Shown here one piece after another: positions 15,301 through 44,787 of a DNA stretch of 64,000 nt. Within the stretch, counting starts at the first letter, position 1, and each line of letters begins with the position of its first letter. The DNA is from a virus. A program made the position numbers and the translations under genes. The notes beneath the pieces were generated by a model, which saw nothing but the letters and a program-made list of their open reading frames with translations, did not search any database and was not told the origin of the DNA. The stretch is from positions 1 to 64,000 of the IMG/VR virus record IMGVR_UViG_3300045934_000106. One strand, given 5' to 3'.

Positions 15301-15611
15301 CAGCCACCTCCCTGCGCTTCGTGCAAGCCCTCGCGGCGGCCGTCGGCGAACGCATCGCGCGCGTCGCGCTGCGCGCCCCGTTGCTCCTCGAACAGCTCTT
15401 TGCGGTGCCTCGCGGCCGTGACGGCGCGGTGTCTCAGCACGTAGGCGACACCGTCGAGCGCGTCGCAGAACTGCGCGAGTGTGAAGGCGCGCTCCCCGTA
15501 GGCGAAGGACGTCGCCGTCACGAGCGCGCCGAGTGACGCCATCCACTGGCAGCGCGCGCAGAGGGTGTCACCGGCCAGGATGTAGCCGCCGCAGTGCGTG
15601 CAGCGCGTCAC
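15297..15611 (-). CDS. Zinc-ribbon small protein (104 aa)
   Basis: CTHCGGYILAGDTLCARC at residues 4-21 is a zinc ribbon. A hydrophobic helix and a charged helical tail follow (RHRKELFEEQRGAQRDARD). It lies between RecT and the exonuclease with 4-nt overlaps, so it is probably co-expressed with them. The role is unknown. Confidence 0.7.
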   Translation of the reverse strand: MTRCTHCGGYILAGDTLCARCQWMASLGALVTATSFAYGERAFTLAQFCDALDGVAYVLRHRAVTAARHRKELFEEQRGAQRDARDAFADGRREGLHEAQGGGW

Positions 15612-16777: not shown

Positions 16778-16844
16778 GGCAGGACCTCCACTTGTCGGAC
16801 GTGAGTGAAATCGGGGATAATCATGGGCACTCGTCTCCATCTCA

Positions 16845-26347: not shown

Positions 26348-29300
26348 CTACCGCCCAACGGGCAAGCGATGGCGCGGCATGCCCTGCAGGCCGGCCTTCC
26401 CGGTCGCGAGGCGCGCGGTGTGCACCAACTCCTCGAGCGCCCGATCGAGGGCGGCGCGTTTCTGCTCCGGCGTCATCGCCTCCGGCGACGCGGCGTAAAT
26501 CTCATCGATCCCGTCCCGAATCTCGTCAATCCGCCGCTTGCCGGCCCGGAGCCGATTGGCGCGGTCCCCGGTAAAGCCGGCGACGCCCCGCTGCCGGGTA
26601 TCCGCCCGTTCGCCCCAGCGGCCCAGGTCCTGGTGCTCGGCCGCCAGCTCGCGGCCGCGGGTGGCATCATTCACCCTGGCCGCACGGCGCATCGCCTGCT
26701 CGGCGCCCGTCATCTCGGTATAGGCGTCGTAGAACGCCTCGATCGAGACCGACTGCGACGAGAACGCCGCATCACGATGGAAGACATCGGCCAGCGGTTT
26801 CACCACGAACGGTACGTCGTGGCGGTCCCGCGGCGCCCGTTCCTTGACCGCCGGCAGCAGCCCCAGCTTGCCCAGCACCGGATCGGCGATGTAGATGACC
26901 GCGATCCGGCCCATGCCGGCCGTGTAGCCGTAGAACAGGTGTTCAATCTTGGCCGGCGACCACTTCATCAGGCGTCCGAGCGCCTTCGCCGTCTCGCTGG
27001 TGAAGTCGTTATGCTGGTCCTCCTCGGGCAGGTCCAGGTCGAACGGTGACACGATATTCCGGTCGCGGAACGTGCTGTAGTTCGCCATCACTTCGAGAAT
27101 CGGCAGCACCACGGTCGGCATCACCGAGACGACCGTTTGTCCCATGTCCGAGTCGCTCGGCCGCAGCCGCTTCCAGTGCTCGGCGTTCCCCATCACCTCG
27201 TGTGCCGCGGCCTCGGCGAGGTCCGCCGCATAGCCCCACTCGAACGGTTTCGGGATGCGGATGAAGTAGTCGGCGCCGTGGAATCTCAGGTGCCAGTAGG
27301 TGCGCTTCTCCCACGCCGGCAGTTCTTGATACTCGTCGTCGTCGTGGTTCCACCAGGCGAGGATGGCGGAGAACAGCATCATCGCGGCGACCTTCTCAAG
27401 CGTGCCGACCGGATCCCGGGCCACCGTCTCACCGATGCGGACGTAGCCCTGCACCCGCGCATTGAAGAACGCCGAATAGCGGTTCAACTCCCGGGTCCAC
27501 CGGCCGCCGCGGCTGAAGTCCGTCGTGACATCCCGTGCCGCGAGCGCCGCCCGGGTCAGCGTTTCCTCGTTGATCGTGAACTGCTTGGCGCCGAACAGCC
27601 GTTTCAGGACGCCCTGCTCCACGCCGCCGGCTTCGAGCGCCAGCTTGAACTCGCCCATGCGCGTCGCCATCTCCAGCTGTGAGGACACCATTTGCATGAA
27701 CTGCAGCGGGTGCATCGGCCAGTAGCGCAGCAGCGCCTTGGCGTCCTGGCGGTTCAACCGGCCGAGGGTTTCGCGGATGCGTTGGCGGTCCTGGCCCACC
27801 ATCGCCGTCTGATCGATGCCGGAGGCGAAGAACTGTTTGGCCACCTCTGTGCCGCGCACCAGCTCAATGAGCCCGCGGGCGGTGTCATAGCCCGGGATGA
27901 ACCCGTAGCGCGACTGCAGGAAGGCGACGAGCGCATCACGGGCCGGGTTGCGCGCGATGAAGTGTGGCGTGAGCGTGGCGCCCGCCCGCAGCACGCGCGT
28001 GAACGGCTCGACGAACGTCGCCAGCACGCTGCTCTTCAGGTTCGCCCCAATGCGCGTGATCGCCTCGTAGAGCTCGGGATTGTGGACGTCGTAGAACTCG
28101 CGGCGGCCGTCCCGGATCACCGTCACGAGGGTCTGGCCGGGCGTGACGAACGTGGCCGGCGTGAACAGCGTCACCAGATCCCGATCGGTCAGGCCGGTCG
28201 CCTGGATAAAGTCCGCGATCGCGGGGTCCTGGCCGGCGAACGCCTCGAGGATCGCCATCACGTTCACCGTGTCGGGGATCTGCGGGGCGGGGATCTTCTC
28301 CAGTCCGCCGAGCCGCGAGGACGCTTTCGAGCGGTCCGCCTGGTTGGCGAGCGCCATCATCGCGCGGTTCTTCTCGACCATATCGACGATGGCGTGCGTG
28401 TTGACGATGATCGACTCGAACGGGTTGACGATGTCGAGCCCGGATCCTTTGATCCGCTTCACGGGCACGGTGCGGTTGCCGATGCGCATCGCGCCGCTCA
28501 TGCGCGCCTCGACCTCCTCCATCACCCGCTTGAACGGGATGTAGAACTCGTTCAGCTTCTTGATCTTGGCGATCTGCTCGTCGCTCATCGCGCCGTACTG
28601 GCGCGCGTACTCGAGCAGCGCATCCTGATAGGCGTAGACCGCGTCCCGGGCCTGCTCGAACGCGGTGAAGTCGGCCCGTTGCTTGGTGACCTTGATCGTC
28701 TCGATCGCCTCGGTGAGCGAGATGCCGGTTTCGACCGGCAGCGTGCGCTTCTTGGTGTCCTTCAGCTCCACCACGCGCAGCGCGACGAGGTAATTGCCGA
28801 ATTTCTTCAACGTCTCGTCGTTCTTGGAGACAGGCTTGAGGGCGTCGGCGAGACTGCCGCTGATGAACTTCCCATTGCGCGCCCGCACGCCCCATTCGAG
28901 GAAGGCTTGGGCTTTGCCGGCCGCCCCACGCGCCAGGCGCGCGAGCACGTAGGCGTTCTGGCGGAAGGCCACCGCGGCGCCGTCACGCATCGCGTCGACC
29001 GCGCGCTTGATCGGCTGCAGGTCGTCGACGAGGTTCGTGGCCGCGTGGCGCAGCGCCGCCTTCGGGTCGGTCGCGGCGAGCCGGAGCCCGGTCGCCGGGC
29101 CCTTACCGGTGTAGTCGATCCGCGCTTCGAGCCGCTCCGGGTAGGACATGCCGAGATAGCCCTGCACGTTCGTACGGGCCTCGTGCAGCGCCTGCTCGAG
29201 ATCGGGCTTGGTCGCGAGCTGCTTCGTGAACTCGGCGAAATAGTTCGGCGCGGCCGCCTGCACCGCCGAGGGGTCTAGTAGCCACTCGCGGAAGAAGTTC

Positions 29301-32300
29301 GCGGCGCCCTCCCGGCGCACCTCGCCGGCCGTATAGGACGGGCGGGACGTGGGCACACCCAGCGCATGCAGTTCCGCTTTCCACCGTTTGTCGTTGCGCT
29401 TAATGCCGAGGATGGAGATGTCGAGCCCGTGGCCAGCCTCGTGGAAGATGGTCATCAGGTCGTTGGCGACCTTCACGCGGATCGACTCGACGTCGTCTTT
29501 GTAGATGCCGCGCGCGCGCTGGCGGAAGTGCTTTTCGCGCACCGGCACACCGCCCAACGCCTGGCGGATCTGGTTCACGATCGCGCTCGGGCGGAGGTTG
29601 GCCGAGACGGGGAGCCCGGAGCCCTTCGGCGGCGGCATTGGTATTGGGCGCGGCGGCACACTGACCGGCAGGGACGAGACGGATCCGGACGGCGTGTCGT
29701 CGTCGCTGTCCTCGTCGGTGTCCGCGGCCGCCGGCGCCGGCTCGGGTGCGGGCTGCAGCGCCGTCATCCGCTCGCGCACGCGCGATTCGAGGTCCCGCTT
29801 TTTCACCGCCTCCCAGAGGTCGTCTTGTCCCGTGCCAAGATCGGCCGCGCTCAGTAGGCGCCGGGCGTAAATCTCGACGGCCTTGTCATCGCTGGCGGAC
29901 TCGGCGCGCTCCATGCCGAGCTCGGCGCGCAGTTGGAACAGTTCCGCTTCCTTCGCTTCGAGTTCGGCCAGCTGCTTAAATGGCGCGTCCAGTAACTTGC
30001 GATTGGTCTCGACCTCCTGCTGGTAGCGCTCGGTCCACTTCTCGCTGTCGGCGATCTCGCTGGCCAGTCGCTGCACCCCGAAGTACGCGTCGAGACTGCG
30101 CGTGTAGCTCGGGATCGTGCCCTGCAGCTTGGAGTGCGGCGAATAGCCGGGCGACGTGCCAACGGGGTCCTTCTCCAGGCGCACGGAGATTGCGGGCGTG
30201 TAGAACTGGACCCCCTCATCGTTGTGCGCCTGCGTCCCGCGCGTGTACTCCAGCGTGAACGGCCCGGCGGTCCCCATCGCCATCTCGTCGGCGCCGACAT
30301 ATGCGGCGTCGAGCTTCATCACGGCCTCGACGTCGGCCTGGAATTGCTTGCGCGCCTCCGGATCTTTCCAGTCGTAGGTGCGCGGCTCGGAGCGCTGGAT
30401 GGAGTCCATCCCCCACTGCTTGCCGGCCTTCACTGTCAGCGTGACGGTGGGCTTCTCGTGCCACGCCTTCAGTTCTTCGAGCTTCGCCTTCAGCTTCTCA
30501 ATGCGCGGATGCGCGCGACCGAGGAACTCGACGGTCCGATCGATCTCGCCCTGCGCCGCCTGGCGCTTGCGCGACCAGTTCGTATACCGCGCCCGAAGCC
30601 CCTTCAGGTCGCGCTCGATATTGAGCATCTTGAGCGTGCGCGGATCGCCGCTGGCGAGCGCGGCGGCCACCTCCATGTCGAGCTGCGACGGGTCGACGTC
30701 GTCCATCTTGTTCACTTCGCCACGGAGCATCTTGTAGATGAATCCCTGCTTGATGGCGAGCAGCGACCAGCGGTATTCGTCGAACGAGCCTTCGGTGACG
30801 TAGCGCAGGACCTCGATTTCCTCGTTCGTGTTGCCCTGGCGACGGATGCGTCCCTCGCGTTGCTCCATGTCGGCCGGGCGCCACGGCACGTCGAGATGGT
30901 GGAGTGCCACGAGCCGCTTCTGCACGTTCATGCCGACGCCACCCTTGGCGGTGGAGGCGATCATGATGCGTACGCGCCCGTCGTTCATCGCAGCAAAGAG
31001 GCGGCCCTGTTCTCCTGGCGTCTGCGCCTGCTGAATGAACGCGATCTCGTCGGCCGGGATCTTGTGCTCTCTCACGAGGACGCGCTTCAGCTCCTCATAG
31101 AGGTTGCGCATGTGGCCAGCGGCGGCGATGTCCCGCATCGCTTCGTCGAACTCGGCCTCTTCGTCAACGATGTCGTCTTTGGCCTCGTCGTCCGTTTCGT
31201 CGTCAGCGGCCGCCTCCTCCTGGACCGGCGCCGCGGCGGCCTGCCCGCCCACGACTGACGGCGGGAGCGGGGGCATTTCCTTGGCCGGCGGCACGCCCAC
31301 GTCGAGGAACACGAGCTGTGTGCCCTTGGTGGCGGCGTGCTCGGTGTAGCGCTTCGCCAGTTCGCGGGCGGCGGTGCGAATACGCCCGTTCGGATCGTCT
31401 TCGGCCTCTGGCTTCACGAGCCGCATATCGATCGCGGCGAGGCCCGCCTGCGTCGTGATCAGGAGGTGGTTGTCGTCCTTCGGATCGACGCGGCCCGTTT
31501 TCAGCGCCTCAATGCGGTCGTCGAGTTCGTGCATGAACTTGGGCATCAGCGGGTGCGGCTTGAGTGCGACAACTGTTGGGCGCCCGCCTTTGAGCTTCGG
31601 CAGCTTCAGCACGCCGCTCTGCTCGAGGTCATCGGTCGTCAGCACGTCGGTGAAGCGGCGGAACAGTTTCGACAGTTCGCGCAAGTTGCTCCACTCGCGC
31701 AGCCGGATCCGTTCCTTGTAGCCGGTGCCCGCGGCCTTCTCCATGGCCGGCGACGCCTCGGCGTAGCCACTCATCCACGAGTCGAAGCCAGCCATGCCGA
31801 ACCGGTCTAGCGTGTGCTGCGCCAGATACCGGAACATCGTGTAGAGCTCGGAAATAGCGTTACTGACTGGCGTGCCGGTCGCGAACATCAGGTTGCGGTA
31901 GTTGCTGGCCTGATTGATCAGCCGCGCCTTCAGGAACATATCCATCGCGCGGTCGGAGTCTGATCCGCGCAGCCCGACGATCTTGTTGTGGCGGCTGGAG
32001 AAATAGAGATTCTTGAACAGGTGCGCTTCGTCGATCAGGAGCGCATCGACGCCGAGCTTCTCGAACTCGACCGGCGCGTCTTTCGCTTGCTGGTCGAGCC
32101 GCTTCTGCATGCGCGTGCGCAGGCGAATGAGCGCCCGGACAATATCCTTCGTGCTCTCCTCGACGCCGCGGCCCATCACGCGCTGCTTCGCTCGCTTGTC
32201 TCCGTCGGCGGCCTCGGTGACGGCTTGGTCGAACTCCTCGACCGTCATATCGAGGCTGTCGGCACCCTCAGCCAGAAGCTGCGCCTCCTGCTCCTCGACG

Positions 32301-35300
32301 AACGCCCTAAGCGTGTCGAGCGTGACGCCGACGCGCACGTACTGCGACATCGGGAGGATCACGGCGTCCCAATCGTTGTTCGCAATGCGCGCGATGAGTC
32401 GCTGACGGTTCTTCTTCTCGAAGTCGGCTTTCGCCGGCACGATCACGCGGGCGCCGGGATAGAACAGCAGATAATCGCGCCGCCACTGTTCGATCAGGTG
32501 GTTCGGCACCACGATCATGGGCTTGCGCGCCAGGCCGAGACGCTTCATCTCGCCGGACGTCGCGATCATCGCGAACGTCTTGCCGGCGCCGACGGCGTGC
32601 GCCAGGAGCGTATTGCCAGCTTGCAGGGCCCGCCACACGGCATTCTTCTGCCAGGGCCGCAGCTGGATCTCAGGGTTGCTGTTCGGGATGATCAGCTTCG
32701 ACCCGTCGAATTGCCGTGGCGCCTCGCGGTTAAACTGCGCGTTATAGAGCTTGGTGAGCTGGTCCGCGACCTGCGCATCCGCGCGCCACCACGTGCTCCA
32801 CTCTTCGCGCAGCTGCTTCAGCGACTGCCGGTACTGCTCGGTGGCCTGCGTGTCGACGTAGGTCGACCCGTCCGGGTTCTCACGCTTCACCGTCGGCAGT
32901 TTGCCGTTGAGAGCCTCCGCCAACCACTCGGAGTACACGAGGTTGGGCGGCATGAGGTCGTCGCGGCCCCACCCTGTGACGTAGTACTGCACCCGGTGCG
33001 CGTTGTTCACGAGCTTGATGTCGAGGTCGCTGTTGGCGCCGCGCGACTTGAAGAACTTATCGAATGCCGTGATCGGCACCCACGTTGCGCCGAACGGTGC
33101 GTCGAAGTCTTCGGGCGTGAGCGGCGCCGGCTGCACCTTGTTCAGCGCTTCGACGTTCCGCCGGTAGGTGTGATCCTGCAGCGCGGCGGCTTCCGCCGCG
33201 GCGAGCTTCGTGACGACGTCACCGGACAGATACTCCTCGGTCGTCACCCATCCCTTCGTCGCCGGATCGCGGTAGACCTCGGCGCCGAGTTCCTCGGTCA
33301 GCTGCTCAGCGGTCTTGCCCGTGAGCTGCGTCATGTAGGGCAGGTCGACCTGCCCCTTCCATGCGAGGCTCTGCACGAGCGCGTCCTGCGCGCTGGCGGC
33401 GGTCGTCGGCTCTTCGACCGGCTGAATCGTGCGCTTGGTGAAGAACGGCGCCAACCCCTTGAACTGCAGGACGGCGGGCTTGCCCTTCGTCTCCTTGATA
33501 AACTCGACATCTTCGAGCGCCAGGATGCGCGCCCCGTTGGGATCGAGGTTGATGACGCGCGCGTTCTCGCGCGTGTTGACGTGGCCGAGCGCCGACACGA
33601 AGCGGTCGTAGTGCTTCCGTAGATCCGCCTGGGCGGCGGCGAGGGCCTCATCCGAGGCGCGCGATACCATCGCGTCGAGCACCTGCTGATAGGCGTCGCG
33701 GAGTGGGACGAAATACTTGGCGCGGTCGAGCGCCTTGCCCTTCAGCTCGAGCGGCTTCATCGTGCCCTTGTCAAACACGTAGGCTTTGCCCTTGTCGATC
33801 AGGAGGGTGCCTTGTTTGGCATCGGCCGGCGCGTCCTTCGCCACCTTGCGCGGCGGCGTCTTCGACGGCTTATAGGCGCCGGTCTCGAACTGCGCGACCG
33901 CGGACGCAAGGCGCTCCGGCGTCAGGTCCCCGACGACGTTGTATTGCGCGTCGCGCGTGCGTTGCATCTTGCCGGATCCGTCCGCCGTGCCCAGCACCAT
34001 CTCGGGATGCTTCGCGAAATACTGATTGACCGGGAACTTCACCTTGTCCTTCGCCCAGAACTCCCCCTTGGTGGCTTTCTTGGCATCCCGCACGACCTGA
34101 ATGGTCTCGGTGTAGAGCCACTGTTGTGCGGCAACGCCCTTGACGTTCGGATCTTTGCGTCGCAACACGATCACGTCCGTTACCACTTCGGTGCCGGCGG
34201 TGGACTGGAAGGATGTGTCCGGCAGGCGGAACGCGCCGAGGAAGTCCGCGCGTGCGTCGAGATACTTGCGCACCACGTCACTCTGGCTGTCCATGGTGTA
34301 GCGCGACGTGACGAACACGACGAGCCCGCCCGGACGAACCAGATCGAGCGCCTTGCCAAAGAAGTAGTTATGCAGCGACCGCGACATCACCTGCTTCTCG
34401 GAACCGCTGAACGCCGGGTCAAAGACCGGGAGCCTCCCGAACGGCACATTCGAGATGACGAGGTCGAAATAGTGCTCCGGCAATCGCGCTTCCTGCAGGG
34501 GCGACGTCTGGATATGGGCGCCTTGATAGAGCTGACGCGCAATGGCCGAGGCAATCGGCTCCATGTCGACGCCGTAGAGCGTCGTGCGCGTGTTGGTGCG
34601 GATGCTGGCCGGCATCGTGCCGAAGAAGTGGCCCGTGCCGATGGCCGGCTCGAGGATCGATCCGCCCTTGAACCCCAGACGCTCGACCAGATTCCACATC
34701 GCGCGCGGCAGCTCGTTGAAGGAATAGTGCGCGTTGACGGTGGAGTCTCCCATCGCGCTCAGTTCCGCCTTCGTGAGGAGGCGATCCAGCTCCTGGCGCG
34801 CGAGCTTGTGCCGAGGATCTGTGACGTGGTCGACGCCACGCGGGTCAACGACGGGCGCCAGGTTGGTGTGCCCCCAGCCGATATAGCGCGCGAGCACGGC
34901 CTGCTCCGCATCGGTGGCCATGCGGTTGTTCTCGGCCCGCAGCGCTTTCAGCAGGCGCAACGCCGCCATGTTGTCGTCGAGTTTCTTCGTCCATCCGCCT
35001 TCGGTGAGGACCTCGGCGTTGTCGATGACGAAGTGTCGCGGGGCTTGCCCGCGCGCGTGACCGGCCGCTACTTCGGGGTCTGTGGCACTGTCGGCGGTGT
35101 CCACATGAGCGGGGCTGCTTGCTCCCGCGCTTCGTGGAGCGGGAGCCCCTGAGCCCTCAACAGCAGCTCGTGCTCGTGTGCCGCGTTGACCGCGTTTCTG
35201 ACCGCCTGTTCGACGTCCCTCGGGTTGGCTCGGTGTGCTCGTCTGGTCGGCGGGCTGTGCTCCAGCCACACCCGCAGCACCTCCGTCTCGATCCCCTCCA

Positions 35301-38300
35301 GCGGCGTCTTCGTCACGGGCTCCGACGGCGTCCCCACGACGTGTATCGTCTTGTCCATCGGCCGTCTCCTGAGTGGTATTCTGCGCCTCTTCCGGCAGGT
35401 CTGCAACTCGGCGGTCTTCGTTCCGCAACCGGCGCCAGGCAATCTCAAAATGCCGCTGGAGCAGGGCCGCCAGCGGTGGGTAGTCCTCCTTGAACGTCAG
35501 CCACGCCAACTTGAATTCGACGACGCCATCATCAATGTAGGTGCGGACGATCCCCACCATATCGACGACATCCTGCGGATCGATGCCGGCGGTGAGCGTG
35601 GTGCCGTGGCGGGCGGCGAGTTTCTTCGCCAGCTCGTCGCGCTTCGCCTTGTTGGCCGCCTTGCGCGCGTCGAGCTCGGCGCGTTGCGTGTCGACGACGG
35701 GCGCCGATGGCTTCGCGTGCGGCGCCGTGACGAACGACGGCAGCACGTACTTCCATTCGGGCTCGACCTGCGGTGTCTTCGGCTTCACCGGCACGCCCGG
35801 CAACTCCACCGGAGGCGCCGGTTTCTCTGCCTTCGGTCCGATCTTCCGCTTCAGGACGATCTTCTCTGCGTCGGCGATGGCCTGATTCTTCTGAGGGTGT
35901 AGTGACTCCAGACGCGCCGCCGTGGGTACCGGCGACAAGACCTGAACTCTGACGGCCCACCGTTTACCGATGCCCGTATCTTCGAGGTCGACGGTGACCC
36001 TCACCTCTTCCCCGTTGGGGGTCCAGCCCTTGAAGCCTCCGACCGTATCAAGGTCGCGCTCGAATTGCGTAGTGTGCTCGCCGCCCGCGGTGAGTGGTGC
36101 CAGTCGCACGCGATCAACCGGGATCCACTTCGACAGCTCGCCGTTCGGTTCGAGTGCGATCTTGACGTTGCGTGTCGCGCCGTCGAACGCATGCACGGTG
36201 CCCATGCCTTCGTCGGCGATGACGCGTTCACCCACTTTGATGCCATTGGCGCTCGTCGACATCGCCTCGCCACGGCCCATCGGCTCTGAGCTGTCGGCCT
36301 TCGGCGTGACGGGCAGATCCGGCGGCTTCGCCTGTTGAGCACCGAAGTCCAGTGACGGCAGCGTCATGCCGGCCTTGGTGCCGTGCCGCGTCATGAACGC
36401 CTTGATGGGCGCCATCGTCGCTTGCACCTGTTCGACGGTGGCCGTGGGCAACTGCGGATACGCACCCATCCCCGCGCGCAGGTGTCCGTGGATGAGGCCC
36501 TGGAGCTTGCCGGCCGCCTGCCCTGGCGCCTTCCAATACGGCCATCCGTCGCTATGGCTGTCGACTTCCTGCTGGAACGCTTGCAGGAAGCGCGACGCCG
36601 GACCGAGGACGGAATGCCGATCGAAGCGCGAGACCGCCTCCTCAATCTCGCTTCGGTTCATCCACACGGACGGCGCATCGGCCGGCTTGTCAGCCGCCGC
36701 GGGTGTCGCTTTCTGCTCCGCCTTTGCCGGGCCCAGCCCAGGATTGATGGTGCGCGCGTCGACAAACGTGACGGTCTCGTCGCCTTCCCACTGCACGCGG
36801 AGGTAATCACCCTTCGGCCCGGGCTCCTGTGCCGGCGACGCGACGTGGCCGATCTTCCACTCCATCGGATCGACGCTACGTTGGTCTGTGACCTGCTGGC
36901 CGGCGGTGTAACGCGCAGCCGCTGCGCCCATGCTTTCGATCACCTCGACCTTTGGCCCGGCGGCCGGTGTCGGCTTCTTCTCCTGCACTGGCGGTGCGGT
37001 TTTCTTCGAGGCGGCTGCCTTCGGCGCAGGCGCCGCGGCCTCTGGTGCGTGGGCGACGACGTCCATGCCCTTGAGCATGAGACTGTCGTTGGGGACCGTC
37101 CCTTCGCTGGTGGCGGTCTTGCCTTTGCCCTTGTTCGCGATCTTGAGTAGGCTCCACTTGTTGGCGCCGATCTTCGTGGCGGCCCAGGCGCCGGATTGGC
37201 GGCGCGTGCCGATGGGATCGTCTTGTGGAAGTGATTTTTGACTTCCACGTTTCACTTCCACCGCCGGAGGTTGACTTCCAGCCGCCGCCTGCTCCGCTTC
37301 GTATTCCTTGAGGATCTCTGCGGCCAGTTCCTCGTCGGACATCTCCGCGGCGGCCTTCGGTGTCGCGGCGACAGGCGGTGGCGCCTTCTCCTCCGCCTTC
37401 GGCGTGACCGGTGCCGATCGCTTCGGCACGCGGAACTTCATCTCACTGGCGGTCGTCGTGCGTTTCTTCGGGTTGCGCACGTGCATCGTGACTTCGTAGT
37501 CGATGGTGACGACGTCGCCGTCGCGCGTGACGCGAGTCACCTTAAACGTCGAGTCTTTCTCCTGCGGACTGTCTTGGATCCCAAGGATGTTCTTCGCGGC
37601 GGTGCGGCGCCGCGCGTCGTTCATCGACTCCCATTCGCCGCGGCCCATCGACGCCTTGATGTGCACCTCCGTCGCGTCCATGACCGCGTCGTAGGCTTTG
37701 CGCGTGATCGGGTCGGCTTTCTCGGCGATGTTCTCGGCGAAGCGGGGTGCGGCTGGCGTGTCCGCGAGCGCCGCGTCCGCTGCCGCGAGCACGGATTCAG
37801 GTGTCGGCGCGGTACCGCCCAACGGGATCTCAACCTGCTCGCCGTTGCGGTCGGAGAACACGAGCCGATCGAGCGTGACGGACTGTCCAGCGATCGACGT
37901 GTCGCCGTCGTACTTCTTGCCCAAGCCAGGCTTGACGTACGCCACGGTCGCATGCGGCTTGTAGTCGGGATGCGTGTCGGTGTGCGGCAGCGCATCGGCG
38001 ATCTTCTTGTTCAGTCGATGCAGGTCGTCGGAGTCGATGTCGACCTTGACGGCGTCGGCGGTGCCGTCCTCTACGTCCGGGAAGTGCGACGTCTTGCCGA
38101 ACGTGACGCGGATCGGTGGCTCATCCGCCAGCAACGCGCGCACTTCATCGACGTAGTCGCCGTGCAGACCATACTTGACCGTGATATGCGGCTGCTCTTC
38201 GCGGCCGTGCTCAGGCGCCAGGTCCTCGTCGGGGATCTTCGCGGAGAGCGTACTGATCTGTTTCGCCGCATCCGGCGGCAGGTTCGCCTGCGTCGACGCG

Positions 38301-40444
38301 AACTTGTATTTGGTCTCGCGCTCCGGCTCTTCCTCGACGTCCTCCTCGACGTCGGCCATCGGATCGGGGAACGTCTCGCCGCGCTCTTTGGCGGCCGTCT
38401 CGCGGGACGTCTCGAGCTGAGACTGCTGCTCGCCCATCGCCCGCAGTTCCTTCGATCCGAGTTCTTCGCCGCGCGCGAGCTTCTCGCGGATGCGGGTATA
38501 CGCCGCGTCCTGTTCCGGCGTGCTGATGCGATCCGCGCCTCGACGCTCTGGGCCGGTGTACAGGGTCCGGACGGGCGCCCGGTCCCGGCCCCCTGTACGG
38601 GCTGGGGGCGTCTCCGCCAGCGCGGCATCGACCGCCGCCAGCATCTCCTCCGGCGTTCGTTCGAGCGTCACGCCGCGCGCGTCAAGGATCGACTGCCAGT
38701 GTCGGACGTTCGCCTCGGCCTGCTGTAGCACCTCCGGCGAGGCACGCATGCCGCCCTTCTTCTTCGTGAGCTGGTCGAGCGTGCCCTGTGCGTGCAGCAG
38801 CTCCATCCGGATCTGATCGTCCGGCCACGCGGCGACATCGGCCGGCAGCTCGTCGCCCGGCTGCATGTCCTCCGGCGTCGGCACCGACAGCGTCGCGTCA
38901 ATCTGCGCGAGCAGGTCTTCGGCCGCCGGGGCCTCAAGCGGGAGGTCCTGTCCGGTCTGTCCGGTCTGTCCGATCGCGGTCTGTCCGGCCGGATCGACGC
39001 GGGCGGCGGCCTGTGCGGGCGTCATGCCCGCCATCTCCGCCTCGGAGAGGCCGAGCGCTTCGAGCGGCCCGCGCATCTGTTGCGCGAGCTGGGACGGCGT
39101 CACCGTCTCCGGCGGTGGCGGCGGGACCGGCGGACGACCGAGCTGTGACACCGCGCCCGCGCCCCCGCCCATCACGGCGCCCGCGAACGCGCCCAGCACC
39201 GCGGCATCGTCGACGTTCTCGTGAAGCGGCCGGCCCGTGGCGAGGTTCTGCGCCACCTGCTCTTGTACGGACTGCGGCAGTTCTTCGAGGACCCCTTCGT
39301 TGAACGCCGCGAAGCCGACCTCAAGGACAGCCCGCGTGAAGCCTTTACGGGCGTTCGGGTTGAGCGCGGCGGCGGCCAGCAACGTATCGACGTCGGCGAC
39401 CCCCAGCGTCTCGGCGACCTTGCCGCCGACGAACCCCAGCATCCCCGTCAACGCGCCGGACGAGATGGCGATCCCCGCTTGGCCAGGGCCGAGCACGCCG
39501 CCGGAGTCGTGCCGGATCTGTTCGGCGGTCTGCCCGCCCGCCACGGCACCCTCGCCGATGGCACCCGCGGTGACCGGCGACAGTGCTGGCGCCGCTTTGA
39601 GCAGCGGACGCGCCACGCCGAGCCCGCCCATCATCGACGGGGCGGATTCGAGCGCGGTATGGCCGATCACCGATGGATTCGACAGCGCCGCCATCGCCTT
39701 GTCGAGGAACCCGGAGGCGTCCTGCACGGTGGCGAACGCCTGTTTCTGCGGGTCCGAGTAGTAGCGCGACAGGATCTCCTTGGCGAGCGCCGGCTGATAC
39801 CCCGCGGCTTCGGCCGCGCGCATGAACGCGCCGCCTTCGTAGCCGAGATCGCCCGGTCCGGCAGCATCCACCGCGCCGAGATACGCGGCCACGACGGCAT
39901 CGGCCAGCCCAATCCCGGCTTCCGGCAGACCCACGACCCCCTTCGCGAGCGAGATGGCGGGGTCCTGTGCGTAGCGTTCAAACGGCGTGGCCGGTGAGAA
40001 CGGCGCCGGCGGTGCCGGTGGCGGCGGCGACGGGAGCGCCTGCCCACTCAGGTTGACGACAGGACGGCCGATCCCCGCGCGCTGCTCGCCCGCGGACGGC
40101 GAGATCGGCACATGACTGCGCGCCATCGTCGCCCCGGTCGCTTGACGCTTCGCGGCCTGGACTTGCGCCACGGATGGCCCTGGCTGCATCGAAGCGGCCC
40201 CTGGCTGCATCAAACCTGGCCCCGGCTGCATACGTGCCCGGCTCGACATCGGTGCCAAGGGCGCCATCGTGGTTGACAGGGCGGGCACCGTAGGCGGCGT
40301 CGAGTCATCCGCCAGCGTAGAGTCGATGTCGGCGAGCAACGACGACAGGTCCGGCGTCTTCGTCCGGATGGTCTGGGACTCTTGCAGCGTCGCGTCGATG
40401 TCGGCCAGCAGCGACTGGAGGGAAGAACCGGGCTGCTGTGCCAC
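26348..40444 (-). CDS. Giant polyvalent protein (4,698 aa), DarB-like antirestriction/ejection protein
   Basis: Parts in order: disordered start with MQPG repeats (1-150); Ala/Gly-rich hydrophobic region (about 170-440); 2H phosphoesterase/2'-5' RNA-ligase-like domain (HITVKYG near 755, HATVAYV near 833); Lys/Pro-rich linkers; N6-adenine methyltransferase (LEPAIGTGHFFG near 1935, SNVPFG near 1997); SNF2-like helicase (HAVGAGKTFAM near 2618, LLIDEAHLF near 2805, ATGTPVSN near 2855, RRQGNTNEEIE near 3205); a HEAGH metallopeptidase-like site (near 3669); LPD38-like C-terminus (NPARDALVAFLQSRYGF near 4170). P1 DarB-type proteins are packaged, injected and shield DNA from type I restriction. Following three internal-virion genes supports packaging. 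The multi-enzyme content is known of polyvalent proteins; the ejection is inferred. Confidence 0.95.
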   Translation of the reverse strand: MAQQPGSSLQSLLADIDATLQESQTIRTKTPDLSSLLADIDSTLADDSTPPTVPALSTTMAPLAPMSSRARMQPGPGLMQPGAASMQPGPSVAQVQAAKRQATGATMARSHVPISPSAGEQRAGIGRPVVNLSGQALPSPPPPAPPAPFSPATPFERYAQDPAISLAKGVVGLPEAGIGLADAVVAAYLGAVDAAGPGDLGYEGGAFMRAAEAAGYQPALAKEILSRYYSDPQKQAFATVQDASGFLDKAMAALSNPSVIGHTALESAPSMMGGLGVARPLLKAAPALSPVTAGAIGEGAVAGGQTAEQIRHDSGGVLGPGQAGIAISSGALTGMLGFVGGKVAETLGVADVDTLLAAAALNPNARKGFTRAVLEVGFAAFNEGVLEELPQSVQEQVAQNLATGRPLHENVDDAAVLGAFAGAVMGGGAGAVSQLGRPPVPPPPPETVTPSQLAQQMRGPLEALGLSEAEMAGMTPAQAAARVDPAGQTAIGQTGQTGQDLPLEAPAAEDLLAQIDATLSVPTPEDMQPGDELPADVAAWPDDQIRMELLHAQGTLDQLTKKKGGMRASPEVLQQAEANVRHWQSILDARGVTLERTPEEMLAAVDAALAETPPARTGGRDRAPVRTLYTGPERRGADRISTPEQDAAYTRIREKLARGEELGSKELRAMGEQQSQLETSRETAAKERGETFPDPMADVEEDVEEEPERETKYKFASTQANLPPDAAKQISTLSAKIPDEDLAPEHGREEQPHITVKYGLHGDYVDEVRALLADEPPIRVTFGKTSHFPDVEDGTADAVKVDIDSDDLHRLNKKIADALPHTDTHPDYKPHATVAYVKPGLGKKYDGDTSIAGQSVTLDRLVFSDRNGEQVEIPLGGTAPTPESVLAAADAALADTPAAPRFAENIAEKADPITRKAYDAVMDATEVHIKASMGRGEWESMNDARRRTAAKNILGIQDSPQEKDSTFKVTRVTRDGDVVTIDYEVTMHVRNPKKRTTTASEMKFRVPKRSAPVTPKAEEKAPPPVAATPKAAAEMSDEELAAEILKEYEAEQAAAGSQPPAVEVKRGSQKSLPQDDPIGTRRQSGAWAATKIGANKWSLLKIANKGKGKTATSEGTVPNDSLMLKGMDVVAHAPEAAAPAPKAAASKKTAPPVQEKKPTPAAGPKVEVIESMGAAAARYTAGQQVTDQRSVDPMEWKIGHVASPAQEPGPKGDYLRVQWEGDETVTFVDARTINPGLGPAKAEQKATPAAADKPADAPSVWMNRSEIEEAVSRFDRHSVLGPASRFLQAFQQEVDSHSDGWPYWKAPGQAAGKLQGLIHGHLRAGMGAYPQLPTATVEQVQATMAPIKAFMTRHGTKAGMTLPSLDFGAQQAKPPDLPVTPKADSSEPMGRGEAMSTSANGIKVGERVIADEGMGTVHAFDGATRNVKIALEPNGELSKWIPVDRVRLAPLTAGGEHTTQFERDLDTVGGFKGWTPNGEEVRVTVDLEDTGIGKRWAVRVQVLSPVPTAARLESLHPQKNQAIADAEKIVLKRKIGPKAEKPAPPVELPGVPVKPKTPQVEPEWKYVLPSFVTAPHAKPSAPVVDTQRAELDARKAANKAKRDELAKKLAARHGTTLTAGIDPQDVVDMVGIVRTYIDDGVVEFKLAWLTFKEDYPPLAALLQRHFEIAWRRLRNEDRRVADLPEEAQNTTQETADGQDDTRRGDAVGARDEDAAGGDRDGGAAGVAGAQPADQTSTPSQPEGRRTGGQKRGQRGTRARAAVEGSGAPAPRSAGASSPAHVDTADSATDPEVAAGHARGQAPRHFVIDNAEVLTEGGWTKKLDDNMAALRLLKALRAENNRMATDAEQAVLARYIGWGHTNLAPVVDPRGVDHVTDPRHKLARQELDRLLTKAELSAMGDSTVNAHYSFNELPRAMWNLVERLGFKGGSILEPAIGTGHFFGTMPASIRTNTRTTLYGVDMEPIASAIARQLYQGAHIQTSPLQEARLPEHYFDLVISNVPFGRLPVFDPAFSGSEKQVMSRSLHNYFFGKALDLVRPGGLVVFVTSRYTMDSQSDVVRKYLDARADFLGAFRLPDTSFQSTAGTEVVTDVIVLRRKDPNVKGVAAQQWLYTETIQVVRDAKKATKGEFWAKDKVKFPVNQYFAKHPEMVLGTADGSGKMQRTRDAQYNVVGDLTPERLASAVAQFETGAYKPSKTPPRKVAKDAPADAKQGTLLIDKGKAYVFDKGTMKPLELKGKALDRAKYFVPLRDAYQQVLDAMVSRASDEALAAAQADLRKHYDRFVSALGHVNTRENARVINLDPNGARILALEDVEFIKETKGKPAVLQFKGLAPFFTKRTIQPVEEPTTAASAQDALVQSLAWKGQVDLPYMTQLTGKTAEQLTEELGAEVYRDPATKGWVTTEEYLSGDVVTKLAAAEAAALQDHTYRRNVEALNKVQPAPLTPEDFDAPFGATWVPITAFDKFFKSRGANSDLDIKLVNNAHRVQYYVTGWGRDDLMPPNLVYSEWLAEALNGKLPTVKRENPDGSTYVDTQATEQYRQSLKQLREEWSTWWRADAQVADQLTKLYNAQFNREAPRQFDGSKLIIPNSNPEIQLRPWQKNAVWRALQAGNTLLAHAVGAGKTFAMIATSGEMKRLGLARKPMIVVPNHLIEQWRRDYLLFYPGARVIVPAKADFEKKNRQRLIARIANNDWDAVILPMSQYVRVGVTLDTLRAFVEEQEAQLLAEGADSLDMTVEEFDQAVTEAADGDKRAKQRVMGRGVEESTKDIVRALIRLRTRMQKRLDQQAKDAPVEFEKLGVDALLIDEAHLFKNLYFSSRHNKIVGLRGSDSDRAMDMFLKARLINQASNYRNLMFATGTPVSNAISELYTMFRYLAQHTLDRFGMAGFDSWMSGYAEASPAMEKAAGTGYKERIRLREWSNLRELSKLFRRFTDVLTTDDLEQSGVLKLPKLKGGRPTVVALKPHPLMPKFMHELDDRIEALKTGRVDPKDDNHLLITTQAGLAAIDMRLVKPEAEDDPNGRIRTAARELAKRYTEHAATKGTQLVFLDVGVPPAKEMPPLPPSVVGGQAAAAPVQEEAAADDETDDEAKDDIVDEEAEFDEAMRDIAAAGHMRNLYEELKRVLVREHKIPADEIAFIQQAQTPGEQGRLFAAMNDGRVRIMIASTAKGGVGMNVQKRLVALHHLDVPWRPADMEQREGRIRRQGNTNEEIEVLRYVTEGSFDEYRWSLLAIKQGFIYKMLRGEVNKMDDVDPSQLDMEVAAALASGDPRTLKMLNIERDLKGLRARYTNWSRKRQAAQGEIDRTVEFLGRAHPRIEKLKAKLEELKAWHEKPTVTLTVKAGKQWGMDSIQRSEPRTYDWKDPEARKQFQADVEAVMKLDAAYVGADEMAMGTAGPFTLEYTRGTQAHNDEGVQFYTPAISVRLEKDPVGTSPGYSPHSKLQGTIPSYTRSLDAYFGVQRLASEIADSEKWTERYQQEVETNRKLLDAPFKQLAELEAKEAELFQLRAELGMERAESASDDKAVEIYARRLLSAADLGTGQDDLWEAVKKRDLESRVRERMTALQPAPEPAPAAADTDEDSDDDTPSGSVSSLPVSVPPRPIPMPPPKGSGLPVSANLRPSAIVNQIRQALGGVPVREKHFRQRARGIYKDDVESIRVKVANDLMTIFHEAGHGLDISILGIKRNDKRWKAELHALGVPTSRPSYTAGEVRREGAANFFREWLLDPSAVQAAAPNYFAEFTKQLATKPDLEQALHEARTNVQGYLGMSYPERLEARIDYTGKGPATGLRLAATDPKAALRHAATNLVDDLQPIKRAVDAMRDGAAVAFRQNAYVLARLARGAAGKAQAFLEWGVRARNGKFISGSLADALKPVSKNDETLKKFGNYLVALRVVELKDTKKRTLPVETGISLTEAIETIKVTKQRADFTAFEQARDAVYAYQDALLEYARQYGAMSDEQIAKIKKLNEFYIPFKRVMEEVEARMSGAMRIGNRTVPVKRIKGSGLDIVNPFESIIVNTHAIVDMVEKNRAMMALANQADRSKASSRLGGLEKIPAPQIPDTVNVMAILEAFAGQDPAIADFIQATGLTDRDLVTLFTPATFVTPGQTLVTVIRDGRREFYDVHNPELYEAITRIGANLKSSVLATFVEPFTRVLRAGATLTPHFIARNPARDALVAFLQSRYGFIPGYDTARGLIELVRGTEVAKQFFASGIDQTAMVGQDRQRIRETLGRLNRQDAKALLRYWPMHPLQFMQMVSSQLEMATRMGEFKLALEAGGVEQGVLKRLFGAKQFTINEETLTRAALAARDVTTDFSRGGRWTRELNRYSAFFNARVQGYVRIGETVARDPVGTLEKVAAMMLFSAILAWWNHDDDEYQELPAWEKRTYWHLRFHGADYFIRIPKPFEWGYAADLAEAAAHEVMGNAEHWKRLRPSDSDMGQTVVSVMPTVVLPILEVMANYSTFRDRNIVSPFDLDLPEEDQHNDFTSETAKALGRLMKWSPAKIEHLFYGYTAGMGRIAVIYIADPVLGKLGLLPAVKERAPRDRHDVPFVVKPLADVFHRDAAFSSQSVSIEAFYDAYTEMTGAEQAMRRAARVNDATRGRELAAEHQDLGRWGERADTRQRGVAGFTGDRANRLRAGKRRIDEIRDGIDEIYAASPEAMTPEQKRAALDRALEELVHTARLATGKAGLQGMPRHRLPVGR

Positions 40445-41371
40445 TTAGATCCCGCCTGCGGGCTTGACGCCCCCTGTAGCCTTCTCGACTTCCTTTCGGA
40501 GACGGAGCAGTTCCTGTCGCGCCGCTTCCTGGGCGGCCGGCGTCGTGGCGTCGCGATAGCGCTTCGTCGCCGCGGCCACCTTCGACGCGAGCTGGGTCAG
40601 CTTGTCGTCGGCCGCCTCAGGCGAGGCGGGCGTGTCCGGGTCCACCGGATCGTTGACGATCTCGGTCTGCGGCGGCACCTGCGGCCGCGGGGCGCCGGTC
40701 CTGACGTCCTGCGTCGCGTTGGGTTCAGCCGGGGGCGGCTCGCCGGCCTGCGGGTTCTCGAGGAAGTTCACGGCGCCCATGCGGTTATTGCGATCCGCCT
40801 CGATCCGTTCGCGGCTCTGTCGGTTCTCTGCGGCCGTCTGGGCGGCGGTGCGTTGGCCTTGCCGGACCGTCTCCTGACTGAGGTTGAAGCGGGTATTGCG
40901 GCCCTGCTCGCCGATGGTGAACCGGTTCTGGCGACCCTGCTCGAGGAATTGCTGGATCGTCTGTCGCGCCGCATTGTTGGCGTCCGCGACGCGCTCGACG
41001 GAGCTGCGCGTGTGCAGCGTGTTCCCCGATGGCCGGTTCCAACGGTAGTTCTGGCCTTCCTGCCCGATGATGGCGCGATCGGTGGCGCCCGTCTGGTTGA
41101 TGACGGCGACGTCTTCGCGCGTCTGATTCGTCGCCGCGGTGCGGCGGTCCTGGCCTTCCTGTTGGGCGGTGGTATTGCCCGACGGGCGATCGTAGCGGGC
41201 ATCCCGCATGGATTCGAGCAAGATGCGCACTTCGCTCTGCAGGCGGGCGATCTCTTCGCGCGCGTCGATGCCTTCGCGCGCCACACGGGTGCGCTCGTTC
41301 TCACGCAGCCCATGCGCGAGGCCCGTAAGGGCTCCCCCGATGGCGCTGACGGCGGCTTGTCCACGTCCCAT
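40445..41371 (-). CDS. Internal virion protein-like, coiled coil (308 aa)
   Basis: A short amphipathic N-terminus (AVSAIGGALTGLAHGL) is followed by a Gln/Arg/Glu-rich helical region with repeating units (FTIGEQGRNTRFNLSQETVR). The C-terminal helix is charged (LTQLASKVAAATKRYRDA). It directly abuts the giant gene. The pattern suits a protein packaged inside the head and released on infection. No homologue is recognised by name. Confidence 0.7.
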   Translation of the reverse strand: MGRGQAAVSAIGGALTGLAHGLRENERTRVAREGIDAREEIARLQSEVRILLESMRDARYDRPSGNTTAQQEGQDRRTAATNQTREDVAVINQTGATDRAIIGQEGQNYRWNRPSGNTLHTRSSVERVADANNAARQTIQQFLEQGRQNRFTIGEQGRNTRFNLSQETVRQGQRTAAQTAAENRQSRERIEADRNNRMGAVNFLENPQAGEPPPAEPNATQDVRTGAPRPQVPPQTEIVNDPVDPDTPASPEAADDKLTQLASKVAAATKRYRDATTPAAQEAARQELLRLRKEVEKATGGVKPAGGI

Positions 41372-41380
41372 TGAGTCCCC

Positions 41381-43327
41381 TTACAGGCGCACGCGCCACG
41401 GCGAGCGTGTCGGCGGCGGCCCGCTCTGCCCCGGCGGATTGATGCCGATCCCCGGTGCCGTGCGGTCCTCGATCTGCTGTCCCGACCCCGGCACGGTGGT
41501 CCGCGTGTTGCGCTCGGGAATCGTGTAGGGATAGCCGCCACCGCCCGGATAGCTGAATCCCCCCATGCCCGCCGTCTCGCGCCGGAACTCGAGGTCGGCG
41601 AGGAACTGGTCGTCTTCCTGCGACAGCGTTTCGTAGAAGCGCTCTTGCAGGGCCCGCAGTTCTTCCATCCGGAAGGCGAGCTCCTCGTTGAACTCGCGTG
41701 ACTGCTGTGACAGCTTCTTGAGATCGATGTCCGCGCCAACGTCGATCCCGTAGCGGTCGGTGAGGTCGTTCATCAGACCGAGCGTGTATTGCAGCTGGAG
41801 CTGATCGCCCTGCAGGCCGAGTTCGGCCGCCTTGGCGTTGACCTGCTCGCGCAGCGCGTAGCGGTCGCCCTTGAGCGCGGCGCCCCGCAGCCCGACATCT
41901 GCTGCAAGCGCGACGGCCTCTTTGCGCATCCCCGCCTCTTGCAAGGCGAGCGTGCGCTGCTGGCCGGCGACTCCGGCGCCGAGCTCCGCCGCCGCGCGAC
42001 GGTCCTGCATGTTCGTCGAGGCCGCGGCGATGTCGATGTCGCGTTCCGACTGAATGGTGTTGCGCTTGCGCTGTTCCCGCAGTCCCATGCGCTCGCTGGC
42101 GAGCCAGTTCGAGTCGGCGACGCCGGTATTGTGCGCGAAGCGCATCAGCTCTTGATCGTCGAACTGCCCCATCTCCGCCAGGGTGTCCGCCTCGCGCGAC
42201 TTCATCAGTTCCACGGTCCGCGGATCCATGGACTCCGGATTCTGGAGAATCCGCATCACGAGATCCTGCGTCGCGTTGTCGACGGCGCCCGGACCGTTCG
42301 GGAGCGGTCCGATCCGGCCCAGGATGCTGTCCATGGACGAGAACTGATCGAGGTCCTCGGTCCCAATCTCGCCCGGGGTGTAGGTCGGGCCCATGCGTGA
42401 CCACGCGGGCGCCTGTGGCGTCGGTCGTCCGGTCGGTCCCGGGGCGCCCTGGCCCCCGCCACCGCCCGAACCGCTGCCGTACTGCCGGAACGCGGCGTCG
42501 AGCGCGGCATTCATCATGTCCCCGTAGACCGGAGAGTTGTCGTCGAGGCCACCGGTAAAGCCCACGGTCTGCGCGACCCAATTCAGCTCCGCCTCGTTGA
42601 GCGTGCGACCGATGCCGCGCTGCATTTCGCTTTGCAGGTGCTGCAAGGCTTCCGCGCGCGTCCCGACACGCGAGGGGTCGACGTAGTTCGGGGTGTAGGA
42701 CGCCTGCGGGGCGGGGGCGTCCTGCGCGGTGCCCATCGTCAGCGACGACGTGCCGCCGCCCTGGCGTGTATCCCCGGCGGCGCCGGCCAGCGTGTACGGC
42801 CGGCCGTCGATGACGATCTGATCGCCCTGCCACTTCACGTCGTGGCCATCGGCCTGCAGGCTGCTGTAGATGTTGCGCGCGAGACGATCCTGCTCAATCG
42901 CTTGCACCTGCGGATCGGTCGAACTCCGCATCCGGTTGAGCGAGTCGCGCCACTGCTGGACGGTCGCTTGCGCGTTGGCGTTGCCCTGCTGGACCCCGCC
43001 CTTCGGCATCGGGATCGCGTTCGGACGGTCCGTGATCGGCCCGTACCGTATCTGCTCCAGTGAATCGCCGCCACCGGTCACGCCGGGGAACTGCCCCATC
43101 GTGTTCGCGCCGTACTCCATCGGCGAGGACACCGCCGGCGGCGTCGCCGGGGTCGGGGCCGGGCCGGTGAGGGATGGCAGCTCGAGCCCGGCGGGCGGCT
43201 TCATCGCCCCGCCCGACCGGGTCAGCGCGTTCGAGGTGCGCGAAATGGACGATCCGTACGTAGGACGCGTCTGTGCCGCGTCTTCCATCGGATCGAGCGA
43301 GGACCACGAGAATTGTCCAAGAGCCAT
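41381..43327 (-). CDS. Internal virion protein-like (648 aa)
   Basis: The first 300 residues are Pro/Gly-rich with one folded segment (GIGRTLNEAELNWVAQTVGF). The second half is almost all helix with heptad-like repeats (ADIDLKKLSQQSREFNEELA, RMEELRALQERFYETLSQED). In short-tailed phages the genes before the large ejection protein encode such coiled-coil core proteins. The function is inferred from position and shape. Confidence 0.7.
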   Translation of the reverse strand: MALGQFSWSSLDPMEDAAQTRPTYGSSISRTSNALTRSGGAMKPPAGLELPSLTGPAPTPATPPAVSSPMEYGANTMGQFPGVTGGGDSLEQIRYGPITDRPNAIPMPKGGVQQGNANAQATVQQWRDSLNRMRSSTDPQVQAIEQDRLARNIYSSLQADGHDVKWQGDQIVIDGRPYTLAGAAGDTRQGGGTSSLTMGTAQDAPAPQASYTPNYVDPSRVGTRAEALQHLQSEMQRGIGRTLNEAELNWVAQTVGFTGGLDDNSPVYGDMMNAALDAAFRQYGSGSGGGGGQGAPGPTGRPTPQAPAWSRMGPTYTPGEIGTEDLDQFSSMDSILGRIGPLPNGPGAVDNATQDLVMRILQNPESMDPRTVELMKSREADTLAEMGQFDDQELMRFAHNTGVADSNWLASERMGLREQRKRNTIQSERDIDIAAASTNMQDRRAAAELGAGVAGQQRTLALQEAGMRKEAVALAADVGLRGAALKGDRYALREQVNAKAAELGLQGDQLQLQYTLGLMNDLTDRYGIDVGADIDLKKLSQQSREFNEELAFRMEELRALQERFYETLSQEDDQFLADLEFRRETAGMGGFSYPGGGGYPYTIPERNTRTTVPGSGQQIEDRTAPGIGINPPGQSGPPPTRSPWRVRL

Positions 43328-44787
43328 TACCCTCCGTACGACAGCGACATCGGACTCCGCGCCGCCAGCCGTCGACGATTCCGGTTCCGTGAGGCGCCGG
43401 TCTGGAGACGGTCCGCCTCGGGTCCTAACGCCGCACTCATCAGTGGATCTGGTTGCAGGCCCTGACCCATCGAGCTACTCCGGTTGCGCGTCATCGCCGC
43501 ACGGTCGTTCATGGATGGCATCGCCATCGGATCCGCGGGCTCCACAAACGGGCCTCCCGGTGCCGGCGGCGGCATCATGGGACTGCTCGGCGGCGCTCCC
43601 GGGATCGGCCGTCCCCAGGGCGACGTGGTCGACCGGGCGCCGCCCACCGGACCGAGGTTGCCGGCTACGGCCGAGGGATCACTGCCGATGGCGGAGAGCA
43701 GATCGATCGCCGTAAACCGTGGCGCGCTCGGATCGGTCGCGGTCGGGTTGACCGCGCGTCCACTGGCAATCTGATCGCGCATGGTGCCGGCAGCGGAGCG
43801 CATCTCCGGCGTGTAGGCGCCGGGCGTCTCCCGCTGATAGCGCGTGCCGGCGGCCACGGTGCGCGGCCCGCCGTTGATAATCCGGTCCAGTAGCGCCATC
43901 GCCTGCATCTGCGCCATGACGTGGCTGTACGGGTCGCGGCCGCCTTCTTCGGTCAACGTGTCGAGCAGCGCGAGGTCGCGTTCCCGCGCGTCGCGGCTCT
44001 GCTCAATCTCCAGACTGTGCTCGCGGTTGGCGTCGCCTTCGCGGGCATTCGACCACGCGTTCAACCCGAAGCCCGCGGCCTCGAGCGCCGGCATCACCCA
44101 GGGCGATGACAACATTCCCCCTCCTGTCGCACTTCCTGCGGCGGTCGTGCCGGCCGCAGCGCCACCGCCCGCCGCCGACGTGCCAAACGTCGGGCCCAGC
44201 CCGCGGCTCACATTCGAGGCCAGCACCGGAGAGATGCCGGCACCGCCCGCCACTGCGCCACCTCCGGCTGCGGCCGCGCCGGGCACCAGGCCGGAGGCCA
44301 CGGGAGCGGCATAGCCCGCCATCGGGGCCGTCCATCCGGTGGAGGCGAGGAGTCCGGTGCCGCCCGCTGCGGCGCCGCCGCCACCCGCCGCGCCGCCGGC
44401 CGCCGCGCCACCCGCCGCGCCACCGCCGCCACCACTGAAGGCACTCATCAGGGCCGGCCCGCCAAAGTACGCGCCCGCGCCGATCGCGGCCCCGATGCCG
44501 ATGTTGCGGAGCAAGGTGTTGTGCTGGTTGATGTTCCCGGCGCCGTCGATGTGCATGCCGTCCGGCAAGCGGATGCCTTGACTGCCGAGCCACCGTTCAA
44601 ATTCCGCCTGGTGCCGATCGGACATGCGGATCCCGCGCCCGGTGTCGACCATGCCGCGCTGCGCCTTCCATTCCTGCACCTGCGGCAGAGACCCCAGCCA
44701 GCGATTGAACTGATCGAGCTGTCGTTCATCCGTGTCCCGGTCGGGCACCTGGCGGCCGTCCGGGGTGTAGTACCGCTGTCTCGGCAT
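43327..44787 (-). CDS. Internal virion protein-like, Ala/Gly-rich (486 aa)
   Basis: An N-terminal domain is seen twice in related form (LDQFNRWLGSLPQVQEWKAQ and HQAEFERWLGSQGIRLPDGM). It is followed by a hydrophobic Ala/Gly-rich stretch (residues about 95-220) that may enter membranes. A helical domain and a Met/Pro-rich tail follow. T7- and P22-type ejection proteins also combine a membrane-active stretch with helices. It overlaps the next gene by one base. Confidence 0.7.
   Translation of the reverse strand: MPRQRYYTPDGRQVPDRDTDERQLDQFNRWLGSLPQVQEWKAQRGMVDTGRGIRMSDRHQAEFERWLGSQGIRLPDGMHIDGAGNINQHNTLLRNIGIGAAIGAGAYFGGPALMSAFSGGGGGAAGGAAAGGAAGGGGAAAGGTGLLASTGWTAPMAGYAAPVASGLVPGAAAAGGGAVAGGAGISPVLASNVSRGLGPTFGTSAAGGGAAAGTTAAGSATGGGMLSSPWVMPALEAAGFGLNAWSNAREGDANREHSLEIEQSRDARERDLALLDTLTEEGGRDPYSHVMAQMQAMALLDRIINGGPRTVAAGTRYQRETPGAYTPEMRSAAGTMRDQIASGRAVNPTATDPSAPRFTAIDLLSAIGSDPSAVAGNLGPVGGARSTTSPWGRPIPGAPPSSPMMPPPAPGGPFVEPADPMAMPSMNDRAAMTRNRSSSMGQGLQPDPLMSAALGPEADRLQTGASRNRNRRRLAARSPMSLSYGG

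Follow-up and report, generated by a model that had tools for sequence, protein, structure and literature searches.

The window analysed here, a 64,000-nucleotide stretch of an IMG/VR virus record (IMGVR_UViG_3300045934_000106; 67,918 bases, 67.9 kb; GC 66%), contains a gene for a 4,698-aa protein that is by sequence a DarB-type polyvalent protein and carries a 2H phosphoesterase in its N-terminal part. The account we favour, which in our judgement stands about an even chance of being right, is that this protein is a particle-borne restriction shield combined with an entry-time 2H phosphodiesterase, most likely directed against cyclic-nucleotide immune signals. We infer that the giant protein would be packaged in the virion and delivered along with the phage DNA. 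Its methyltransferase-helicase core would travel on the incoming DNA, modifying or occupying it in cis, and by analogy with the P1 DarB family, as described in PMC5512222, would shield that DNA from restriction; protection from type I restriction in particular is carried over from P1 DarB. The N-terminal 2H domain, predicted to be a live, metal-independent phosphodiesterase, would most likely become free or accessible in the cytoplasm as the phage enters, where it may cleave cyclic-oligonucleotide (CBASS-type) signals, as Acb1 does, and a zincin with an HExxH..E motif may separate the functional parts of the chain by cleaving it. The computed basis of this account consists of the architecture of the protein, a 2H active site that is intact and under selection, the position of the gene and the repeated fusion of 2H domains to virion proteins.

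A single minus-strand frame encodes the giant protein

The gene occupies 26348..40444 on the minus strand as one open frame of 4,698 codons, with a GTG start directly after the TAA of the upstream gene. A sequence-only reading of the same DNA had placed the frame and its length exactly without naming the strand; on the plus strand, the interval 26348-40444 is broken by stop codons. The codon-position GC of the frame is 68/46/85%, and an ortholog in another phage genome (L021) aligns with the giant protein nearly full length, from the first residues to the LPD38 end; the frame is thus a real gene and not a by-product of the 66% GC. We also asked whether high GC had produced an artefact of strand or frame; the codon-position GC, homologs that cover almost all of the protein and the intact motifs led us to reject this. 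Identical DNA (100% in the tested parts) is present on three other contigs. A DNA-level search for a close named relative gave a single 79-base match, and a search for a plasmid match to the 2H-bearing stretch gave none.

Several other genes of this phage caught our attention. On the minus strand at 4346-7222, a C5-cytosine methyltransferase is split at its apparent catalytic Cys by an intein (residues 89-444, junctions ...WFSPD|CFPAGT...IIVHN|CTYHS...) with Hint, LAGLIDADG and intein C-terminal matches. Further along the record (L002 4566-7127; record 64565-67126, minus strand), the 854-aa terminase large subunit has matches split between residues 45-290 and ~493-803, and its residues 492-562 match phrog_36001, which is also matched by the methyltransferase intein, so this is probably a second intein. 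A 243-aa phage protein (16885-17616, minus strand) matches GroES-like co-chaperonins in its N-terminal part. An integrase-like gene (phrog_1) lies on the opposite, plus strand at 20762-21589 with exonucleases nearby, and RecT is encoded at 15608-16840; together, the integrase-like gene, RecT and the exonucleases suggest that the phage is temperate or formerly temperate.

Domain architecture of the giant protein

The features described here are all encoded on the minus strand. Residues 186-440 (39125..39889) match phrog_30335 and are common to a phage 8P protein, the DarB-like protein of vB_PalP_Y7 and L021 (phmmer E 2e-44 to 5e-50). These are followed by the 2H phosphoesterase (residues 712-877, 37814..38311) and, after linker regions of low similarity, by a part comprising LPD36-like helices and an adenine methyltransferase (residues 1820-2220, 33785..34987; motif I LEPAIGTGHF), to which a SWI2/SNF2-type helicase is fused C-terminally (residues 2560-3300, 30545..32767). 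A zincin-like region (residues 3590-3800, 29045..29677) and an LPD38 domain (residues 4369-4516, 26897..27340; Pfam 4e-33), the latter also present in the L021 genome, complete the chain. The best PHROG, 'DarB-like antirestriction', spans residues 1688-3523 with 1350 bits, and Pfam recognises ResIII/SNF2 at residues 2593-2680 (E 4e-8) and Helicase_C at residues 3131-3204 (E 8e-6). These Pfam and PHROG matches bear out the earlier proposal of a DarB-like polyvalent protein with a SNF2-type helicase and an LPD38-like end, and we class the giant protein by its sequence as a DarB-type polyvalent protein. Matches of PADLOC and NCBIfam models to DISARM, BREX and similar helicases were put down to generic SNF2 similarity, the NCBIfam scores being far under their curated cut-offs.

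All helicase motifs (GAGKT, DEAH, GTPVSN, QREGRIRRQG) and the SAM-binding motif I are intact. The LPD36 helix domain is defined in PMC5512222 by the signature GxG[G/A/S]; the giant protein has GWGH at the corresponding place and L021 has GWGG. The Pfam Eco57I-type methyltransferase match (residues 1991-2061, E 0.002) falls below cut-off. Motif IV (34436..34450) reads NVPFG, with the Asn, the second Pro and the Phe retained, where L021 and most relatives have the canonical NPPFG; the same variant occurs in three further relatives (L026, L050, L085). The N6-adenine methyltransferase of the sequence-only reading is upheld at motif I and departs from the canonical form at motif IV, which makes the predicted methylation activity less certain.

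For the HEAGH site, the proposed peptidase-like part stands at the level of motifs: HEAGHGLD at residue 3668 and the Glu of a downstream REGAANFF (~3712) are both kept in L021. The phage-type MPTase motif of polyvalent proteins, given by Iyer et al. 2017 (PMC5512222) as HExxH with a downstream Glu and an Asp three residues after HExxH, is found in HEAGHGLD/REGAANFF. The structure model of the region, made from an alignment of two sequences only, is unconfident (pLDDT 59). A search with the zincin region alone returned identical copies only.

The 2H domain has an intact and invariant active site

Pfam assigns residues 723-838 to 2_5_RNA_ligase2 (E 5e-12), the AlphaFold2 model of the 2H domain has a mean pLDDT of 94.1, and Foldseek aligns this model with 2H enzymes at a probability of 1.00; all 31 PDB matches with E <0.001 are 2H-type enzymes. 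The two catalytic HxT motifs, H753-I-T755 (38180..38188) and H831-A-T833 (37946..37954), align residue for residue with H44/T46 and H113/T115 of T4 Acb1. Conservation was assessed in 63 aligned members, among which only five columns are invariant (H48, T50, G54, H126 and T128 in alignment numbering), with the HxT/HxT tetrad kept in 63/63. Between the giant protein and L021, the 2H domain is the best-conserved segment, at 62% compared with 27-53% elsewhere. The pair HITVKYG/HATVAYV, whose failure to fold as a 2H enzyme had been named as a ground for rejecting the original idea, forms, by sequence and model, a true 2H active site; of the earlier label, which joined 2H phosphoesterase and 2'-5' RNA-ligase-like, the 2H phosphoesterase holds and the RNA ligase does not.

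A pattern-based search built on a seven-member alignment located the 2H family in 189 viral stretches, whereas the 84,980 species genomes of bacteria and archaea gave 4 matches, each on a metagenome-assembled contig; these counts are incomplete because the search was pattern-based. The family is virus-enriched.

Likeness to Acb1 and the choice of substrate

In a profile search against PDB sequences, the top two matches were both Acb1 (9q2g, E 3e-8; 9q2y, 3e-6), followed by the plant cyclic phosphodiesterase (2e-5) and FBB1 Acb1 (1.5e-4). The Pfam Acb1 family (PF23474) matches 60/63 members; the window domain itself scores 24.0 bits, under the curated cut-off of 27, and the relative L011 passes it at 29.6. 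For the window domain, the Pfam 2'-5' RNA ligase family scores above Acb1. Among the PDB hits in the Foldseek comparison, FBB1 Acb1 has the highest target-normalised TM-score (0.75) and the lowest rmsd (3.4). In T4 Acb1, Y12, W74, F107 and W147 stack on bases, E141 reads adenine and the C-terminal part forms a lid (PMC9117128). The position of W74 is Phe in the window domain and in 62/63 members, and that of F107 is His in the window domain and His, Phe, Tyr or Trp in 61/63 members; Y12, E141 and the lid residue W147 are not alignable with the family. Related viral 2H enzymes of avian poxviruses degrade cGAMP (PMC11410667). Given this likeness to Acb1 in profile, fold and residues, and the degradation of cGAMP by the poxvirus enzymes, a cyclic-nucleotide immune signal is the leading choice of substrate and the most likely one. 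The counter-CBASS activity suggested before any database search is plausible, and stronger than was then known because the nearest solved profile relatives are Acb1, with the substrate itself still a matter of inference.

The domain might instead act on RNA, either by opening the 2',3'-cyclic phosphate ends that host defences leave when they cut tRNA, or by trimming RNA in the manner of Usb1; we regard this as a serious rival, though the less likely reading. Fold comparison speaks for such a role, with the best Foldseek E-value going to the Deinococcus cyclic phosphodiesterase (drCPDase), with Usb1 also above Acb1 and with LigT among the matches, as do the matches of Pfam LigT to 49/63 members; moreover, a Usb1-like RNase is one of the two options put forward by Iyer et al. 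2017 (PMC5512222). By sequence profile, however, Acb1 ranks above the RNA enzymes, the match to TIGR02258 (RNA 2',3'-cyclic phosphodiesterase) is weak at 19.9 against a cut-off of 65.7, and a profile search of the record, with a positive control, found no PF09414 RNA ligase that could serve as an RNA-repair partner. Action on another nucleotide strikes us as improbable, whether this is a linear 2'-5' oligoadenylate-type molecule or, following the Appr>p chemistry known from the plant cyclic phosphodiesterase, a cyclic phosphate of ADP-ribose: degradation of 2'-5' oligoadenylate is the second option in the same paper, and weaker fold matches include the 2'-5' oligoadenylate phosphodiesterases rotavirus VP3 and MHV ns2 and the Arabidopsis Appr>p phosphodiesterase, but the sequence profile places these candidates behind Acb1, and the 2'-5' phosphodiesterases come low in the fold comparison (E 0.001-0.03).

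A different kind of alternative is that the giant protein serves essentially for ejection or structure and that its enzymatic domains matter little. Giant internal virion proteins are common among podovirus-like phages, JC1 providing an example, and the non-canonical NVPFG would suit a protein of this kind. Against this, the helicase keeps Walker A, DEAH and motif VI, the methyltransferase keeps SAM motif I and the 2H domain keeps both HxT motifs; the tetrad is invariant among the 63 relatives, and the 2H domain ranks as the best-conserved segment of the ortholog pair. We hold this alternative to be very improbable. A packaged enzyme whose 2H domain most likely acts on cyclic-nucleotide signals remains the reading we prefer.

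The 2H module has been swapped among virion-type proteins

We compared 70 loci encoding a 2H domain, a few near-duplicates among them. The domain lies in a frame of at least 1,000 aa at 41/70 loci and in a frame of less than 300 aa at only 7. Its fusion partners are portal proteins with or without MuF, transglycosylase, peptidase M15, Strawberry-notch helicase, topoisomerase IB, ART-PolyVal, PBECR1 and Zeta toxin. Nine other contigs encode the DarB core and the 2H domain in one frame, the 2H domain being N-terminal every time. On the 2H tree, the DarB label requires 9 changes for its 10 members, compared with a mean of 9.5 for shuffled labels, a count to be read knowing that some frames labelled 'other' end at the edge of the fetched DNA and may be wrongly labelled; well-supported branches force at least 4 of these changes, the bootstrap not yet having settled. 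Relatives occur in portal proteins, in proteins bearing peptidoglycan-cutting domains and in nine further DarB-type giants, whose positions on the 2H tree are scattered; we conclude that virion-type proteins have exchanged the module repeatedly.

Some individual viral frames have unusual compositions. Two are portal proteins that carry enzymes: in L066 (528-4337) the portal and 2H parts are joined to a Zeta toxin/AAA_33 kinase, and in L053 (8657-12004) to topoisomerase IB. A third frame has ART-PolyVal, 2H and topoisomerase IB (L015 5981-11512).

Gene position points to packaging

In the record, portal and major head protein genes lie upstream of the giant gene and an endolysin downstream, and the protein is, as expected of polyvalent proteins, a large multidomain protein with an LPD domain encoded beside virion genes. 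Directly past the giant gene is a gene with no assigned function (25892-26290, minus strand), and then the endolysin (25353-25895, minus strand), the DarB-then-endolysin order also seen in SopranoGao and PEp14. The succession of virion genes, DarB-like gene and lysis genes is common to SopranoGao, BcepIL02 and PEp14. Immediately upstream, 40445..44787 on the minus strand holds three genes for proteins of 308, 648 and 486 aa; the first two have syntenic homologs in the genome of the L021 phage. These had been called internal-virion genes; none of the three has a match among Pfam or PHROG profiles, including those of internal virion proteins, and the name is suggested by position and synteny only.

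The phage 8P homolog is annotated as a 'structural protein'. More directly, mass spectrometry of virions purified with CsCl identified the 4,515-aa gp69 of phage JC1, encoded at the same gene position, by 51 unique peptides and with a score second only to that of the major capsid protein (PMC9144972). As the gene order matches that of Bcep22-like phages and JC1 gp69 is present in virions, it is likely by analogy that the giant protein is packaged as well, in agreement with the packaging proposed earlier from gene order.

Significance and relation to known systems

Known anti-CBASS enzymes, such as Acb1, have been characterised as phage-encoded proteins inside infected cells. If the 2H domain is packaged and injected, the phage would have counter-signal activity from time zero, and the same chain would also protect its DNA. 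More broadly, and tentatively, since we put the chance somewhat short of even, the 2H family, which is widespread, virus-specific and exchanged between portal, ejection and DarB-type virion proteins, may represent a particle-borne enzyme that destroys cyclic-nucleotide alarms from entry, before phage gene expression. The prediction made in 2017 that polyvalent 2H domains act against nucleotide signals is now testable on one small, confidently modelled domain (residues ~710-880).

The kind of protein is already known, because JC1 gp69 is proven in virions and 2H polyvalent proteins were described by Iyer et al. 2017; DarB-like giants of about this size (4,698 aa) are well known. According to that study (PMC5512222), 2H domains occur in phage polyvalent, MuF and portal proteins, with an RNase activity or 2'-5' oligoadenylate-type degradation proposed for them. 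What is new is the tie of the polyvalent 2H domain to Acb1, the recurrent 2H and DarB architecture and the swapping of the 2H module; a literature search found no paper joining polyvalent 2H proteins with anti-CBASS.

The 2H section of Iyer et al. 2017 treats such domains in portal, MuF and polyvalent proteins, and ours belongs to the same domain class with the same fusion partners; the fusion of 2H to the methylase-helicase dyad goes unmentioned in that text, as does Acb1, which was described in 2022. With P1 DarB and the methylase-helicase dyad of the same study, the giant protein shares the order LPD36-methyltransferase-SWI2/SNF2, the zincin motif and LPD38, but it has GWGH for GxG[G/A/S] and NVPFG for NPP[FY] of the dyad definition. 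The DarB-like giants of Bcep22-like and related phages (JC1 gp69, BcepIL02 gp70, PEp14 gp27, SopranoGao gp06) have, as here, ~4,400-4,900 aa; the gene likewise lies between virion and lysis genes, and the methyltransferase-helicase core is ~35% identical to that of the window protein over 92-98% of the core. In contrast to the window protein, the nine cultured DarB-like proteins examined, JC1 not being among them, have no 2H domain. Finally, Acb1 (T4 gp57B, FBB1, BCSR5) and the window domain have in common the 2H fold and the HxT/HxT tetrad, with Phe of the window domain aligned to W74 and His to F107; E141 and the lid residue W147 of Acb1 are not alignable, and the window domain stays below the Pfam Acb1 cut-off; and while T4 Acb1 is a separate protein of 152 aa, the 2H domain of the window is one module of a virion-type giant.
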